From Acidimicrobiales bacterium (lineage in GTDB: Bacteria > Actinomycetota > Acidimicrobiia > Acidimicrobiales > Ilumatobacteraceae), in NCBI GenBank assembly GCA_025463415.1, contig JAOBWO010000237.1, positions 1 to 44,184 on the forward strand: a stretch of 44,184 bases of DNA, written 5' to 3'. The notes beneath the pieces are model-generated. The model was not told the DNA's origin, did no database searches, and worked only from the letters and a program-made list of their open reading frames with translations. Position numbers and translations under genes: made by a program. This document shows positions 1,980-10,254 of the stretch, one piece after another. The first letter of the stretch is position 1. Each line of letters opens with the position of its first letter.

Positions 1980-3608
1980 GTGGCAGTGGAGGGCGTCGGA
2001 GGGGCAGCAGAGCACGGCGGCAAGGCACGTGATGCCTCGTTGCACGCGCTCCTGGTGCAGCACCCGAATGCCCTCGTCGCCGCCGCTGACGCCCACGGTC
2101 TCTTCGTCGAGGTGCCGGCGAGCGTCGAACTGCTCGGCCACCGCGTGGTCGAAGCCCGTTCCGCGCTGGACCTGGTGGAACCCGCGTGTCGGGCAGCCGT
2201 CATGGAGGCATGGGAGAAGGCCCTGGAGCTCGGCGGGGGCATCGCACCGGTGACCCTGATCGGCGGTGCCGAGGCGTCGTTCTACTTCATCGACGTTCGG
2301 CCGAGCCACGGGGTCCTGATGGTGATCCTCGCCGCTGACGAGCACATCGAACTGGTCGCCGCGCTCGCCGGACGTGAGCCGGTGATGCCGAAGTCCGGCC
2401 GCACCGACAAGGACGAGCTGGCGATCATCCGCTTCGCCGATGATCGCGCGTTGCGGATGCTCGGGTTCACGCTCGACGAGATCGTCGGATGCCGATCATT
2501 GGATCTGATCCACCCGGACGACCAGTTCAAGGCGATCGACGCCTGGATGGAGATGCTCAGCACTCCCGGCGCAGTGACGCGGTTGCGGGCCCGTCACAAG
2601 CGCGGTGACGGATCGTGGCTGTGGGTGGAGTTGACCAACAACAACCTCCTCGCCGGCCCGGAGCACTCGGTGGTGACCGAGATGATCGACATCGCCGACG
2701 AGATGTCGGCGCTGGAAGCGGTGCGGCAGCGTGAGCAGCTCCTGCTCCGTCTGGCGGATGCACTTCCGTCCGGGGTGCTGCACATCGACCGCGACCGCAA
2801 CGTCGTGTACGGCAACTCCCAGCTGCACCGCGTTGTCGGCATCGGTCCGGTCGCGACGCTCGCAGACCAACTCGCCGCCGTCATCCCGGAGGACCGGTTC
2901 GTGCTGGAGAGCAGCCTGGTCTCGGTGCTCGTGGACGGCCTCGACGCAGATCTCGAAGTGCGTCTCGCGTTGCCGGGTGAGACCAAGATCCGGTACTGCT
3001 CGATCGCGATCCGATCGTTGACCGATGCCGATGACGCGCCGGTCGGCGCGGTGCTGTGCATCGACGATGTGACCGAGGCGTCCGTCCTGCGTGCCGAGCT
3101 GGAGATCCGGGCCACGACGGACGATCTCACCGGCTGCCTGAACCGGGCGGCCGTGCTGCGCGAGCTCGATGCTGCCTTGGCCCACCATGCCGACCACTCG
3201 CCAGGCACTGCGGTGGTGTTCCTCGACCTCGACGGCTTCAAAGAGGTCAACGACACGTTCGGGCACACCACCGGCGATCGTCTGCTCGTCAGCGCCGCCG
3301 ATCAACTGCGCAGCGCGATGCGCTCGATCGACTTCATCGGTCGGCTCGGCGGCGACGAGTTCGTCGTCGTGCTGCCTGCCGTTCGATCGATCGAGGAGGC
3401 GACACGAATCGGCATGCGGCTCACCGATGCGCTGGCCCAGCCGGTCGAGATCGTCGGCGGGCTGCCGACTCGCATCCGCTCGAGCATCGGCGTGGCGTGG
3501 ACCGACATCGTCGGCGTGACCTCCGAGACGCTCACTGCGGCGGCTGACCGGGCGATGTACGAGTCGAAGCGGGCCGGAACGGCAGAGCCGGTGTTCGTCT
3601 CGCTCTGA
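1980..3608 (+). CDS. Diguanylate cyclase with three PAS-like domains (GGDEF protein 1)
   Basis: The 542-residue soluble protein should make cyclic di-GMP from two GTP. It starts at GTG 1980, preceded by a purine-rich AGAGGA. Residues about 20-120 and 250-370 look like PAS folds. Residues 140-245 are a clear PAS (IHPDDQF, then RHKRGDGSWLWVE). The GGDEF domain covers 375-540, with DDLTGCLNR at its start, DLDGFKEVNDTFGHTTGD, and GGDEF at 457-461. RSID at 448-451 lies exactly five residues before GGDEF, where the product-inhibition I-site belongs, so feedback inhibition is likely. No membrane helix is visible, so the signal is probably cytosolic or redox/ligand based. It is transcribed away from the ssuA-like operon, and its stop abuts the stop of the convergent monooxygenase gene without a gap. 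Confidence 0.9.
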   Translation: MAVEGVGGAAEHGGKARDASLHALLVQHPNALVAAADAHGLFVEVPASVELLGHRVVEARSALDLVEPACRAAVMEAWEKALELGGGIAPVTLIGGAEASFYFIDVRPSHGVLMVILAADEHIELVAALAGREPVMPKSGRTDKDELAIIRFADDRALRMLGFTLDEIVGCRSLDLIHPDDQFKAIDAWMEMLSTPGAVTRLRARHKRGDGSWLWVELTNNNLLAGPEHSVVTEMIDIADEMSALEAVRQREQLLLRLADALPSGVLHIDRDRNVVYGNSQLHRVVGIGPVATLADQLAAVIPEDRFVLESSLVSVLVDGLDADLEVRLALPGETKIRYCSIAIRSLTDADDAPVGAVLCIDDVTEASVLRAELEIRATTDDLTGCLNRAAVLRELDAALAHHADHSPGTAVVFLDLDGFKEVNDTFGHTTGDRLLVSAADQLRSAMRSIDFIGRLGGDEFVVVLPAVRSIEEATRIGMRLTDALAQPVEIVGGLPTRIRSSIGVAWTDIVGVTSETLTAAADRAMYESKRAGTAEPVFVSL

Positions 3609-5015: not shown

Positions 5016-5426
5016 TCAGGGACGGCGGAAGTTCGCCCACATGGTCTTGCCCTCTTCGTCGAGGCGCGTGCCCCATTCATCGGCGATGTCGTCGACGATC
5101 TCGAGCCCACGTCCGCCGTGCTCGTCGACGTGTTCGGCCGGCGTGGGCAGGGTGGGATCGTGGTCGTGGACCTCGAGCCGCAGGGGATCAGCGTCCCAGG
5201 CGTGCAGATGGCCGCCCTGCCCGGTGTGCAGCACGACGTTCGACACCAGCTCGCTCGCGACGAGGCTGACGTCGGCCGCGAACGCCCCTGGCTCCAAGTG
5301 CAGTGGCCCCAAAGCGGTCCGTGCCGCACGAGGTGCCGCCGGATCGTTGCCGAACTCGAAGGCGACGTCCGGCTGGGACCACTCTCGTGGGTCGGCGTCG
5401 CCTGCTCCGTTCATACTCTCTGTCAT
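5016..5426 (-). CDS. RsbW-like ATP-binding protein (anti-sigma factor / serine kinase family)
   Basis: The 136-residue protein is a single GHKL ATPase domain of the RsbW/SpoIIAB type, which holds sigma factors or phosphorylates anti-anti-sigma partners. The N-box is visible as ELVSNVVLHT and the G1-type glycine box as GGRGLEIVDD followed by DEWG. The length is typical of stand-alone actinobacterial members. I chose the ATG at 5426; a second ATG lies 12 bases downstream (5414), and the ORF track extends further with no support. No sigma factor or STAS partner is present in the window. It is transcribed divergently from a GGDEF gene with a shared short control region that contains a 7-bp inverted repeat. 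A link between general stress control and c-di-GMP is inference from this arrangement. Confidence 0.8.
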   Translation of the reverse strand: MTESMNGAGDADPREWSQPDVAFEFGNDPAAPRAARTALGPLHLEPGAFAADVSLVASELVSNVVLHTGQGGHLHAWDADPLRLEVHDHDPTLPTPAEHVDEHGGRGLEIVDDIADEWGTRLDEEGKTMWANFRRP

Positions 5427-5444
5427 ACCCCAACGGGACCCCCG

Positions 5445-5468
5445 CCGAGACTCCGGCATGCGTCTCGG
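5445..5468. promoter_or_regulatory. Inverted repeat in the divergent control region (candidate operator)
   Basis: CCGAGAC and GTCTCGG form perfect 7-bp arms separated by 10 bases. It lies between the RsbW-like gene (minus) and GGDEF protein 2 (plus), where a dimeric regulator could act on both. No family is recognised. Confidence 0.35.
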
Positions 5469-5510: not shown

Positions 5511-6887
5511 TTGCTCAAGCGCGTGCGGAACATCGCCGAAGACAACAACGTGGGAACTGCAGCGGACCGGGCATTCAGGTCGATGAGTCGGCGCGAGGGC
5601 CACTACACGCTGCTGCTCGACGAGCAGTTCAACATCATCTGGCACTGTGACTCGCTCAGTCCGATGCTCGGCTTCGACGATCTCGTCGGCCACAACGCAG
5701 CCGACTACGTGCACCCCGACGACCTCGAGCTGGTGCTCCAGACGCTGCTGCAGGTCGCCAACTCCGACGGCTACGACCGCCTCGATCCCACCCACTCGCC
5801 CGAGTCCGCCGACATCCGCATCTGCGACGTCGACGGGCGTTGGCACACCTTCGCGGTGACCACCTACGACCACCTCGACGACGAGGGCGTGCAAGCCGTG
5901 CTCTGCACCTGCACGCTCATCCGTGACAGATCCGATGTCAGCCGGACGATCGAGATGCTCGGCTCCGGGGCCGACGTCGAGGCCGTGCTGCCCGTCGTGG
6001 CACGCCTGGCCGACCGATCACTCGGCGGCAACACCCGCACCGCGTTCGCGTGGCGCACCGGCGAGCGCGTGCAGCGGGTCTGCGCGCTCGACGAGGCCAC
6101 GCTCGACCCCCGCCTGTGCACCGCTGTCGATCTGGTGTGGTCACTCGATCTGCGCGAGCCATTGATCATCACCGACCTCGACGACCCTCGTCTCGGCGCG
6201 TCGGGCCCACTGGCTCGCGAGCACGGCTTCATCGCCGCGTTCCTCGTGCCCATCGAAGAGCCCAACGGCAACGCCGTGATCGGCGCGATGGTGGCCTGGG
6301 GCAAGTCGATCGTCGAGTTCCAGGTCGCCCGTCAGTCGCCGATCCACGTCGCGCTGCGCCTCGCCGCGCTCGCCATCGCCGACAGCCGCACGAAGCGCGA
6401 CCTGCGCTGGGCAGCGGCCCACGATCCTCTGACGGGGCTGATCAACCGGGCCGAGTTCGCTCGCGCACTGGAGCACGCTGCTGCCGCCGACGATGTCGTC
6501 CTGTTGTACATCGACCTCGACGACTTCAAGCCGATCAACGACCTGTACGGTCACGCGGTCGGCGACAAGGTGCTGATCGAAGTCGGCCGACGGATCACCG
6601 ATGTGATCGGGCCACGAGATGTGGTCGGTCGCCTCGGCGGCGACGAGTTCGCCGTCGTCTGCGGCGGCACGGACGACCCGATCTACGGCCGTGACGTCGC
6701 CAACCGCATCGTCAGCGCCGTGCACGAACCGATCGACAGCCAAGGCGTCGATGTCCGGGTTGGCGCATCGGTCGGTGTCGCAGTGGGCGCTCAGCCATTG
6801 GTGGCCGCGCACCTCATGCAGCGTGCCGACGATGCCCTGTACCTCGCCAAGGCATCCGGCAAGAACACCGTCCGCCTCGCCGGCTGA
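5511..6887 (+). CDS. Diguanylate cyclase with PAS and GAF-like domains (GGDEF protein 2)
   Basis: This 458-residue soluble protein has a PAS domain at about 30-140 (YVHPDDLELVLQTLL), a GAF-like region at about 150-290, and a complete GGDEF domain from 300. It shows HDPLTGLINR, DLDDFKPINDLYGHAVGD and GGDEF at 376-380, so cyclase activity is expected. The residues where an RxxD inhibition site should be read GPRD, so the arginine is displaced and the canonical I-site is missing, unlike the two neighbouring cyclases. The start is uncertain: the ORF opens at TTG 5511 with no ribosome site, GTG 5523 is possible, and ATG 5583 has only a weak AGG before it but sits right at the PAS domain. It is divergent from the RsbW-like gene and convergent with GGDEF protein 3 across a strong hairpin. 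Confidence 0.85.
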   Translation: MLKRVRNIAEDNNVGTAADRAFRSMSRREGHYTLLLDEQFNIIWHCDSLSPMLGFDDLVGHNAADYVHPDDLELVLQTLLQVANSDGYDRLDPTHSPESADIRICDVDGRWHTFAVTTYDHLDDEGVQAVLCTCTLIRDRSDVSRTIEMLGSGADVEAVLPVVARLADRSLGGNTRTAFAWRTGERVQRVCALDEATLDPRLCTAVDLVWSLDLREPLIITDLDDPRLGASGPLAREHGFIAAFLVPIEEPNGNAVIGAMVAWGKSIVEFQVARQSPIHVALRLAALAIADSRTKRDLRWAAAHDPLTGLINRAEFARALEHAAAADDVVLLYIDLDDFKPINDLYGHAVGDKVLIEVGRRITDVIGPRDVVGRLGGDEFAVVCGGTDDPIYGRDVANRIVSAVHEPIDSQGVDVRVGASVGVAVGAQPLVAAHLMQRADDALYLAKASGKNTVRLAG

Positions 6888-6927: not shown

Positions 6928-8256
6928 TCAGACCAGCGAGGGGTCGAGCTCGGTCTCCCGGGCGTCCAGTTCGTCGTGCACGTCGACGAGGTCCATCGCC
7001 TCGGAGGCAGCGAACGCGATGCGGTTGACGATCCGGTTGCGGCCGGTGCGCTTGGCGCGCATCAACCGCTCGTCGGCGAGCTGGAGGAGCACCTGGTAGT
7101 CGCCGGACTCAGTGGTGTCGGCCACGCCGGCGGACACCGTGAAGGCGGGAGTGCGGCCGTCGCTGACGGCAGCGATCAACTCGAGCCGGACTCGCTCGAG
7201 GATCTCGGTGGCGCCGATGGAATCGGTGTACGGCATGACCACGACGAACTCCTCGCCGCCGTGACGCGAGACCAGATCGGCGGCGCGCACGGTGTTGCGC
7301 AGCGTGCGTGCGAAGAGGCGCAGCGCACGATCACCGGTGTCGTGTCCGTACGTGTCGTTCAGCCGCTTGAAGTGGTCCAGATCGCAGATGCCGACGGCGA
7401 AGGGCACGTCGTCGCGCATGAGGATGCGCACCGAGTTCTCCATGCTGCGCCGGTTGTTCAACCCGGTCAACGGATCGGTGCTGGCCTGCAGCTGGGTCTG
7501 CGCCGTGGCGCGAAGCATGCCGACGTACTGGCCGGCCTGGTGGGCGACGGACTCGACCCGGTCGCGCTCGGTGGCATCCAGCGGCATGCCCTCGCGGACG
7601 ACGTGGACGACTCCGGTCGCACGTCCGACGACGCTGACCGGAACGCACAGCGCGGCGAGGTTGGCGATGCCTCGTTCGGCGAGGTGCGGGCAGCAGTCGA
7701 GCTGATCGCTCGACGCGAACTGGAGGGTCTGACCGTTGCGCACCGCGGGGCAGCCGCGCGGCGTGGCGACCTCGCACACGCTGGCGCCCGTGCAGTTGCT
7801 GGTGCTGACGACGGTCTGGAGGTGGGCGTCGCTGTTGTCCGCAAGGAGGATCGATGCGCTGAGGTCGGTGCCGGCCATCGACAGCGCCTTGGCGGCGACA
7901 CCGAGCGCCATCGTCTCGCTGTCGGCCATGTCCAGGGCACGCCCGAGCCGCGCATCGAATGCTTGCCGCTCGTTCTGCTGACGGAGCTCCTCGGTGATGC
8001 GGAACGAGGCCTTGCGCTGGGTCGTCAGCAGGACGCGCAGCGGCACGGCGACGACGACGAGGATCAAGAAGGTGGTGACGGCGACGAAGGCAGCCCACGA
8101 CATGGCCTCGGTGGTCTGGGTCTGGGCGATCGCGTTGCCGATGCATGCGATGGAGACGACGACGCCGAGGTTGAGCAACACCGTCGGCCACGTGCCGCTC
8201 ATCATGTTGAGGCGCTGCGTGCTGCGCGCTTTGTCGACCCTGGACTGACCACTCAT
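6928..8256 (-). CDS. Membrane diguanylate cyclase with cysteine-rich GAF domain (GGDEF protein 3)
   Basis: With the ATG at 8256 the product has 442 residues; the ORF track's longer start at 8355 adds unsupported residues. Two membrane helices (about 24-46 and 54-78) are followed by a GAF domain (about 115-250) and a GGDEF domain (255-420). The active-site variant is GGEEF at 333-337, which is catalytically competent in this family. RAAD at 324-327 lies five residues upstream and is a proper I-site. The GAF domain carries six cysteines (155, 161, 169, 188, 189, 204), including a CEVATPRGCP stretch and a CCPHL stretch. Similar cysteine-bearing GAF domains occur in actinobacterial cyclases, and metal, heme or redox sensing is plausible but unproven. 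The start codon overlaps the stop of a short upstream reading frame in an ATGA. Confidence 0.9.
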   Translation of the reverse strand: MSGQSRVDKARSTQRLNMMSGTWPTVLLNLGVVVSIACIGNAIAQTQTTEAMSWAAFVAVTTFLILVVVAVPLRVLLTTQRKASFRITEELRQQNERQAFDARLGRALDMADSETMALGVAAKALSMAGTDLSASILLADNSDAHLQTVVSTSNCTGASVCEVATPRGCPAVRNGQTLQFASSDQLDCCPHLAERGIANLAALCVPVSVVGRATGVVHVVREGMPLDATERDRVESVAHQAGQYVGMLRATAQTQLQASTDPLTGLNNRRSMENSVRILMRDDVPFAVGICDLDHFKRLNDTYGHDTGDRALRLFARTLRNTVRAADLVSRHGGEEFVVVMPYTDSIGATEILERVRLELIAAVSDGRTPAFTVSAGVADTTESGDYQVLLQLADERLMRAKRTGRNRIVNRIAFAASEAMDLVDVHDELDARETELDPSLV

Positions 8257-8291
8257 GGCACTGTCATCGGCCTTCCTCTGTGTTTCGTCAT
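8253..8291 (-). other. Possible 12-codon leader peptide upstream of GGDEF protein 3
   Basis: A short frame starting at ATG 8291 encodes MTKHRGRPMTVP and stops with a TGA that overlaps the ATG of the cyclase gene (ATGA). An AGGAAGG ribosome-binding sequence lies inside it, 3 bases before its internal ATG (MTVP) but 14 bases before the cyclase ATG. The spacing suggests that ribosomes load on the short frame and pass to the cyclase by coupling. Chance occurrence cannot be excluded. Confidence 0.3.
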
Positions 8292-8526
8292 GGTTCTTGA
8301 CAAAACCTTGAGGCTCACCTTCGTGCTTTCCCGCGAGATCGGCGGAGAAGGCCATGAAGAGTGGACGGCGCCTCGGTGGCAGCCGTGCCCTTGGTCGGCC
8401 GTGATCGTCAAGAACTTCTCTGGACGCTCACTGATCGCTCACCCTCGGAGTCGTTCGTGCCGATACGCACCGTGTCCCGATCTGCCCGGGTCCGTGCATC
8501 GGATCCGCCTCCCGGCAAGGAACAGC

Positions 8527-10254
8527 GTGCCCGCTTCGTCAACCACCATCGACATCGAATCCGACGTCTTCGCTCTGCGGCTGGCCAACCTGCTGCGCGC
8601 GACGCGCACGACCAGCGGGCGGTCTTACCGCGGCCTGGCCCGCGCCAGCGAAGGGCGCTTCACTCGCGAGCAGCTGCGCGAACTCGAAGAGGGCACTGCA
8701 GCGGTCGACGAGGAGATCGTCGAACTGGTCAGCGCGCTGTACGGCGCCGACCTCGGCACGATCCTCCCCAACCGCCTGCCCGTCTCGATCACCAACGGTG
8801 TGATCAGTGCCGGTGGGGTGCGCGCCTCGTTCGTCGCCACGAACGCGACATCGCTGCTGACTGCGTACCTGCGTCTGATCCGCTCGATGCGGCGTCAGAA
8901 GAAGGCGCCGATGATCGCGCTCCGGCGTGAGGATGTCGAAGCCCTCGCCGAGTACCTCGAGGAGCCGGGTGAGTCGATCGTCGACCGCCTGACCGCGCTG
9001 ATGGGGGCAACACTGACCCAGCGCACTGCGATGGCGACGATGTTCGCGACGGGCGCGATCGTGATCGGGCTGGCCGGCTCGACCGCTGCCCGCGCACCCG
9101 ACCCGACCGGCGCTCCGGTGGCGGGTGGCAACCGCACGGTCGAGCTCGTCGTCGACGACACGTCCACCACGATCGAGCAGACGGTCTCCACGGAGCCCAC
9201 CGCCGATGCCTCCTCGTCGACCACCGTCGTGGACCCGAGCGGGCAGGACTCACCTGCCGCCGACCCGCACGTCGTCGTGCAGGACACCGAGACGACGGTC
9301 GCCGCCTCCGGCACCGCACCCGGCACGACACGCGCGACCGACGCGAGCGGTACGGAGACGAACCAGCCCGCGACCAACGGCCGGTCTGCAACGACGCCGT
9401 CGTCGGCGGACCCGACCGCGCCGGATCCGGCAACGCCTACGACTACGCCGACGACCGTGGCCCCCGTGGCCGGAGTCGCCACCGACACAGCGCCCGTTGC
9501 CGACGCCGGTGTGCCCCCCACGACCGACGATCTGACATGGCTCGACGGCGATGGGACCACGCAGATCCCGACCAGCGCGAACGTGCCTGCCGACGGCAGC
9601 CCGGTGACGACCGTGCCGGCGACGATGCCGGCGACTGGGCCGGTGGCGGATGCCGACCCCGTCGTACCCACCGGCCCTGCCGGCGAGGTCGCCACGGACG
9701 CACCACCGATCCCTTCGGCGGTGCCTCAGGGCCGAGCTGCACCGGCCGACGCCGCTACGGCTGAGGGCTTCGCCTCTGCCGCGTTCGTTGCGTCCGAGGC
9801 GCCAGTGGCCGCCACGTCGTCCACCCACCCGACGATGATTGACGGGGCGTCCAAGAGCTCCGCCAGGGAAGCCCGGCGAGCGCGCCGGGCGGACCGCAAG
9901 AACGCTGCAGCGCTCCACCGGATCGAAAGTCGCGCCAAGTCGGCGATCGAGCGTGGCGTGAACCGCATCTACCTCGAGGCGGACGAGGAGCGGGTCGCTG
10001 CCCTCCAAGTGATCTACGCCCGCGCCGACACAGCGCTCGAGCGTGCCTCGATGCGCATCTTCGCCAACGGTCGCACGGAGAAGTCAGAAGCTGTGCTGGC
10101 CGGCGTGAAGGAAGAGATCCTCGCCCGCGCCGAGGACGACAAGGACATCGTCCTCGACAGCATCTACACGCGTGCCCATGCCGAGCGCACCGCGCTCACG
10201 ACCGCGGTGGAGCTTCAGGCCCGTGCTGCACGCGAGGGTCTCGGCCTCGTCTGA
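8527..10254 (+). CDS. One-pass membrane protein: HTH-like N-terminus, Thr/Pro-rich stalk, 15-residue helical repeats
   Basis: I do not recognise this gene as a named family. The ORF track starts at 6619, but the supported start is GTG 8527 with AAGGA five bases upstream, giving 575 residues. Residues 14-80 resemble a Xre-type helix-turn-helix (SYRGLARASEGRFTREQLRELE). One membrane helix spans about 166-189. Residues 190-440 are low-complexity Thr/Ser/Pro/Ala/Asp. The last 130 residues are charged and helical, with isoleucines at 466, 481, 496, 511, 531 and 546 marking a repeat I-[EYFL]-x-[RE]-A. By topology the N-terminus would be cytosolic and the repeat tail outside, recalling RodZ-like or anti-sigma arrangements. 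DNA binding is inference from the weak HTH resemblance. The 3' end overlaps the convergent membrane gene by 40 bp. Confidence 0.7.
   Translation: MPASSTTIDIESDVFALRLANLLRATRTTSGRSYRGLARASEGRFTREQLRELEEGTAAVDEEIVELVSALYGADLGTILPNRLPVSITNGVISAGGVRASFVATNATSLLTAYLRLIRSMRRQKKAPMIALRREDVEALAEYLEEPGESIVDRLTALMGATLTQRTAMATMFATGAIVIGLAGSTAARAPDPTGAPVAGGNRTVELVVDDTSTTIEQTVSTEPTADASSSTTVVDPSGQDSPAADPHVVVQDTETTVAASGTAPGTTRATDASGTETNQPATNGRSATTPSSADPTAPDPATPTTTPTTVAPVAGVATDTAPVADAGVPPTTDDLTWLDGDGTTQIPTSANVPADGSPVTTVPATMPATGPVADADPVVPTGPAGEVATDAPPIPSAVPQGRAAPADAATAEGFASAAFVASEAPVAATSSTHPTMIDGASKSSAREARRARRADRKNAAALHRIESRAKSAIERGVNRIYLEADEERVAALQVIYARADTALERASMRIFANGRTEKSEAVLAGVKEEILARAEDDKDIVLDSIYTRAHAERTALTTAVELQARAAREGLGLV
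9919..10206 (+). repeat. Six helical protein repeats, 15-residue period
   Basis: The encoded tail repeats RIESRA, RIYLEA, VIYARA, RIFANG, EILARA and SIYTRA. The isoleucines are 15, 15, 15, 20 and 15 residues apart. The DNA itself is diverged, so the repeat is kept at the protein level. Confidence 0.7.

Follow-up and report, generated by a model that had tools for sequence, protein, structure and literature searches.

A putative membrane-anchored sister family of BldD in Acidimicrobiia with a predicted half-site for c-di-GMP

BldD is an actinobacterial switch protein under the control of the messenger c-di-GMP, which it reads with an RXD-X8-RXXD signature. To our knowledge, c-di-GMP signaling in the bacteria considered here, which carry many GGDEF proteins per genome, has been little studied. 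BldD itself is described as a soluble repressor driven by c-di-GMP, its signature is stated to be conserved in all BldD homologs (PMC4151990), and one c-di-GMP dimer is reported to suffice for dimerization (PMC11082216). A c-di-GMP receptor that works across a membrane has been described in Pseudomonas, where LapD controls a periplasmic protease from the inside (PMC12564702). Here we describe what appears to be a membrane-anchored sister family of BldD across Acidimicrobiia. Unlike BldD, which is soluble and cytosolic, this family adds a predicted membrane segment and an outer tail.

The member that we analyzed lies in a window (the whole stretch of DNA studied, 44,184 nucleotides) that is an entire contig of an incomplete actinobacterial genome. 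The gene, its parts up to the tail, and two neighboring genes are as follows:

8527 to 10254, forward strand: gene of the membrane-anchored BldD-like protein, an open frame of 575 residues with a GTG start, recognized also from its homologs
8517 to 8521, forward strand: AAGGA, a Shine-Dalgarno-like site 5 bases 5' of the GTG, read directly and conserved in three species
8563 to 8751, forward strand: BldD-type helix-turn-helix (HTH), residues 13-75, from Pfam HTH_31, a profile match to 2EWT/4OB4, and a fold match
8839 to 9006, forward strand: BldD-like C-terminal (c-di-GMP-type) domain (CTD), residues 105-160, from PF21179 and a profile match to 4OAY/5TZD
8890 to 8934, forward strand: RRQ-KKAPMIAL-RRED, residues 122-136, the counterpart of BldD RXD-X8-RXXD in an alignment with BldD
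9031 to 9087, forward strand: predicted single membrane helix, residues 169-187, from hydropathy and conservation in the family
9097 to 9858, forward strand: Thr/Ala/Pro-rich stalk, residues 191-444, recognized by composition and predicted to be extracellular
9685 to 9714, forward strand: EVATDAPPIP, residues 387-396, a diverged copy of VAVGxPPVP, the motif that ends tail-less homologs
6928 to 8355, reverse strand: divergent neighbor, a GAF-GGDEF protein with hydrophobic N-terminal segments, a GGEEF sequence, and an RxxD I-site found by eye
5511 to 6887, forward strand: second GGDEF protein of the conserved neighborhood

The GTG start and the AAGGA site are also conserved in two related species, and the closest named relative in the collection searched is an Ilumatobacteraceae metagenome-assembled genome (MAG), in which the N-terminal half of the protein is 93% identical. 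Residues 169-187 form the best 19-residue hydropathy window of the protein, with a Kyte-Doolittle mean of 1.50 and every other window at or below 1.14. This segment is only modestly hydrophobic in the window protein, its homologs reaching 1.5-2.6, and a conserved hydrophobic segment is present in 40 of the 46 family members (hydropathy-window mean 1.48-2.6). The stalk that follows is 18.5% Thr, 18.1% Ala, and 13.8% Pro. A preliminary description of this DNA had proposed an HTH-like N-terminus, one membrane helix, and a Thr/Pro stalk of about 250 residues. All three are borne out: the HTH by Pfam HTH_31, by a family profile that leads to 2EWT, and by a top fold match to the same structure; the helix, as a prediction, by a single hydrophobic segment kept in homologs; and the stalk by the richness of residues 191-444 in Thr, Ala, and Pro. 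As predicted anatomy, the reading of a membrane-tethered HTH protein holds.

The identity of the cytosolic half emerges from the family. Searches with the single N-terminal sequence return HTH_31 (at residues 18-75), BldD-like_C, and the NCBIfam BldD equivalog, each weakly and below its cut-off; for the equivalog, NF050110, the scores are 27 and 31 bits against a cut-off of 250 bits. A profile of 16 family members, by comparison, matches the BldD DNA-binding domain (2EWT, E = 4e-8) and the structures of the BldD CTD with c-di-GMP (4OAY/5TZD, E = 7e-4), with the domains in the right order, and PF21179 is found in 12 of 16 members. The predicted model of the N-terminal part, which is mediocre in AlphaFold (pLDDT 74, pTM 0.51), has 2EWT as its top fold match (E = 1e-3, TM-score 0.80 on the target). 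The likeness to Streptomyces BldD (NF050110, 2EWT, 4OAY, 5TZD) extends to the order of HTH and CTD and to the HTH fold. Contig C61 of the genome also encodes an ordinary, separate BldD, whose signature is intact (RQD-FNGKVLTV-RGDD), and in a tree of 56 sequences a 100/100 branch divides true BldD orthologs from the family to which the window protein belongs. Because the two lie on opposite sides of this branch and a true BldD is encoded elsewhere in the genome, the window protein is very probably a membrane BldD paralog and not BldD itself. The preliminary description had the layout right but missed what the cytosolic half is, namely a BldD-type HTH followed by a BldD-like CTD.

Regulators of the ToxR and CadC type have winged HTH domains. 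They resemble the window protein in having a cytosolic HTH, one membrane helix, and an outer domain (the latter arrangement being predicted here from hydropathy and conservation), but the window protein combines an HTH of the XRE/BldD kind with a BldD CTD, and its DNA binding appears to be dispensable. If it nonetheless worked as they do, which was the main idea of the preliminary description, it would be a membrane-tethered one-component transcription regulator whose outer hairpin senses the envelope while the HTH binds DNA inside. The HTH fold is kept in most members, there is one membrane segment, the outer part shows the variation expected of a sensor, and a 171-base intergenic region is shared with the divergent GAF-GGDEF gene, as in autoregulated pairs. 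Against this stand the conservation of the HTH and its absence from several lineages. Among the BldD orthologs of these bacteria, conservation is higher in the HTH (0.80) than in the CTD (0.73) and the recognition helix does not vary, whereas in the membrane family the HTH scores below the CTD both in the window protein's branch (0.45 against 0.52) and in the other branch (0.39 against 0.42); the gap is small within the membrane family, but the contrast with BldD is clear. The membrane-family HTH keeps its structural positions alone, and FKASVLGAYERGERA, the recognition helix that never varies in BldD, differs among its members. The HTH is missing altogether from L011, L012, L014, and L056, which fall in at least two places in the tree, and from L185, which lies outside the class Acidimicrobiia; a tblastn search for a hidden HTH upstream of the HTH-less members gave no convincing match. 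No BldD box, TNAC(N)5GTNA, is found in the window, although the site could have changed.

Because several lineages have lost the HTH and the conservation of the recognition helix is gone, DNA binding does not appear to be the core function of the membrane family. HTH loss also fits simple decay after the gain of some other role. The earlier suggestion that the HTH acts on DNA is therefore retained for its anatomy and weakened for its function, as the recognition helix varies while the ligand-type residues are invariant, and we consider a regulator of the ToxR or CadC kind unlikely.

The CTD shows a different pattern of conservation. As in BldD, residues equivalent to Arg114, Arg125, and Asp128 of the c-di-GMP signature stand at the exact spacing: both arginines and the spacing are found in 46/46 members of the membrane family, and the aspartate in 45/46, the remaining one having Glu. 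The equivalent of Asp116, in contrast, occurs in 0/46 members, compared with 11/12 soluble cytosolic BldD-like sequences from the same bacteria, and with this residue missing the membrane family lacks the full RXD-X8-RXXD signature. The window protein conforms to the family, with Arg114, Arg125, and Asp128 kept and Asp116 changed to Gln. Across 27 aligned members that bear the HTH, residues 13-164 contain nine invariant columns, three of which are the kept signature residues. The family also differs from BldD in the loss of Asn118 and of Arg130, a phosphate contact that is usually Glu here, and c-di-GMP may therefore not bind. The way in which the signature is halved corresponds to the two c-di-GMP dimers seen in the BldD structure, and from the alignments we predict that the membrane family is a half-site receptor for c-di-GMP. 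We put the chance that the ligand of the CTD is still a cyclic dinucleotide at roughly even.

The kept Arg and Asp residues could instead be structural. The CTD would then bind no nucleotide, and the protein would be an adaptor that links membrane to wall without a ligand, which agrees with the loss of all three of D116, N118, and R130 of BldD. That R122 and R133 (numbered as in the window protein) never change and D136 hardly ever does, although neighboring residues vary, and that not one member departs from the signature spacing, make such an adaptor rather doubtful.

In RodZ, an HTH is followed by a membrane helix and an outer domain. A RodZ-like scaffold, whose HTH would bind a cytoskeletal or division protein in place of DNA and whose outer part would bind the wall, shares that order. 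It is compatible with the presence of MreB (two full-length matches in most genomes tested), as is the cytoskeletal action that the preliminary description named as its alternative to DNA, and it finds some support in another branch of the order, where a GT2 glycosyltransferase, DNA polymerase IV (Pol IV), and DUF3040 are encoded near the gene, along with a NUDIX protein. Such a scaffold is nonetheless very unlikely, given that RodZ lacks a BldD CTD, that the CTD is the better conserved domain in the membrane family, that HTH-less members occur in genomes with MreB (G027, G060), and that HTH_25, the RodZ-type Pfam model, matches just one of the 16 members (E = 0.005).

The outer part of the window protein ends in a tail with a 15-residue repeat. 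Isoleucines stand at residues 466, 481, 496, 511, 531, and 546, that is, in steps of 15, 15, 15, 20, and 15, exactly as the preliminary description had reported, and a seventh unit starts at Val561. Five of these six units agree with the motif that it gave, I-[EYFL]-x-[RE]-A; the exception is the fourth, which reads IFANG. Self-identity of the tail is 0.22 at a lag of 15 and 0.20 at 30, against about 0.10-0.13 at other lags; the number of Ile-Ile pairs at any lag of 5-30 has a P of about 0.003 on shuffled sequences; and the Ile positions are invariant in a homolog whose tail is ~47% identical. The hydropathy spectrum alone is not significant in either the window protein (P = 0.10) or that homolog (P = 0.84). 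At the protein level, the 15-residue period is real and more than chance. A recent tandem duplication at the DNA level was considered and rejected, as there is no tandem array of that period. AlphaFold, run from three sequences, predicts that the tail is a hairpin of two helices, 440-511 and 518-571 (mean pLDDT 92, pTM 0.72), with these parts:

9844 to 10059, forward strand: first hairpin arm, residues 440-511, with units at 466, 481, and 496 (AlphaFold)
10060 to 10077, forward strand: hairpin turn, residues 512-517 (FANGRT), inside the 20-residue step (AlphaFold and alignment)
10078 to 10239, forward strand: second hairpin arm, residues 518-571, with units at 531, 546, and 561 (AlphaFold)

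Of the near-straight or slightly right-handed coiled coil proposed earlier, right-handed helix packing still suits a 15-residue repeat, but one long straight coil is unlikely and gives way to the predicted hairpin with its turn at the 20-residue step. In the VASP tetramerization domain, short helices assemble in parallel into a four-stranded oligomer. This right-handed coiled coil has a 15-residue helical repeat (cited in PMC4721544), as the tail does, but the tail is predicted to be an intramolecular hairpin built from two long helices. Searches for a relative or known fold of the tail gave no PDB sequence match, no Pfam domain, and no significant fold match, none falling below E = 0.3. Tail homologs at strong E-values are confined to 3 of 201 genomes of the family, representing three species of one genus, and the weak matches elsewhere showed no relation. 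Most homologs lack the tail and several lack the HTH, which in part contradicts what the preliminary description expected of homologs. We regard the repeat as a real, genus-level decoration.

Two GGDEF genes adjoin the gene in all three tail-bearing species, and among nine genomes of the genus the divergent GGDEF gene has orthologs only in these three. Adjacency to GGDEF genes as a family-wide rule was rejected, as it was not found outside this genus. Because the genome has 36 GGDEF matches, the locus was inherited whole, and other homologs are not beside GGDEF genes, we take the adjacency as a weak sign of a link to c-di-GMP. The number of matches is large for a 4.7 Mb genome, and three GGDEF proteins are encoded within a 6.4 kb part of the window (1980-3608, 5511-6887, and 6928-8355). 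Next to the GGDEF genes, positions 5016-5459 encode a small HATPase_c_2 protein of the RsbW anti-sigma type, which is also present in the G004 and G005 neighborhoods.

Judged by its sequences, the membrane-anchored BldD-like family is widespread in Acidimicrobiia and has a few members in other actinobacteria. Most homologs end in short Pro-rich tails. In L013, L015, and L069, the membrane segment is followed by HELGHxxD or a similar metalloprotease-like sequence, although a Pfam scan of L013 and L015 did not recognize a metalloprotease-like domain. A subclade, L082-L093 (L082, L083, L085, L092, and L093), has no membrane segment; in these five proteins, the HTH and CTD are followed by a long Pro-rich stretch and then by a C-terminal domain weakly like a 3-keto-disaccharide hydrolase (E = 0.002 in L085). 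The outer part of L068 (genome G117) contains DDTGDQ repeated over a long stretch, together with a further domain in tandem copies.

Short motifs recur at the ends of these proteins. VAVGxPPVP, often in 2-5 copies, is found at the C-termini of the tail-less L006, L008, L011, L012, L050, L056, and L098. It also occurs in unrelated, secreted-looking proteins, namely a GH71-like glycosidase of this genus and small, Pro-rich proteins with signal peptides from one related genus; the loci with the motif also include G000:C425:7920-7945 (L130), L122, L123, L139, L149-L154, and L162. Across 151 genomes, the motif has 35 matches at the DNA level, compared with 6 for the reversed pattern. It is possibly a surface-binding or recognition tag. 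The C-termini of L071, L073, L088, and L190 carry other short motifs, for example VVIGDGLTIER or VEIGDAIVIERGD, some in two copies, and these may play the part of VAVGxPPVP there.

Taken whole, the protein is best explained, with a probability of about 0.4, as a membrane-anchored BldD paralog in which nucleotide-driven dimerization of the CTD is relayed to the outer part. In the predicted topology, the cytosol would hold the HTH-CTD half, and the stalk and hairpin would face outward. The CTD would dimerize on its nucleotide, and dimerization would be passed through the membrane helix to the hairpin in this genus and, elsewhere, to a metalloprotease-like domain or to short tails rich in Pro. 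The HTH would be an inherited module, dispensable in several lineages. We tentatively prefer the inside-to-outside direction of this relay, which is itself somewhat less likely than not, because the ligand-type domain is conserved while the outer part is variable or looks like an enzyme. Were that direction right, the family would resemble LapD in joining a cytosolic c-di-GMP receptor domain to the outside through the membrane, but LapD uses a degenerate EAL domain, and we claim no sequence relation. A literature search, covering part of the whole literature, found no paper describing such a membrane BldD family, so novelty is unproven.

The main object of interest is thus the membrane BldD paralog family behind the repeat and not the repeat itself. 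The family probably serves as a messenger receptor linked to the cell surface, and not as an ordinary gene regulator. More speculatively, and at odds that we consider low, its members would be widespread actinobacterial transmembrane receptors in which a BldD-derived half-site dimerizes on a single intercalated c-di-GMP dimer and signals from inside to outside, DNA binding having been discarded several times. If this is true, a c-di-GMP transcription factor would have been turned into a membrane receptor in these bacteria. With its halved signature and its repeated loss of the HTH, the family makes it possible to test directly how a transcription factor that binds a tetramer could become a membrane receptor.
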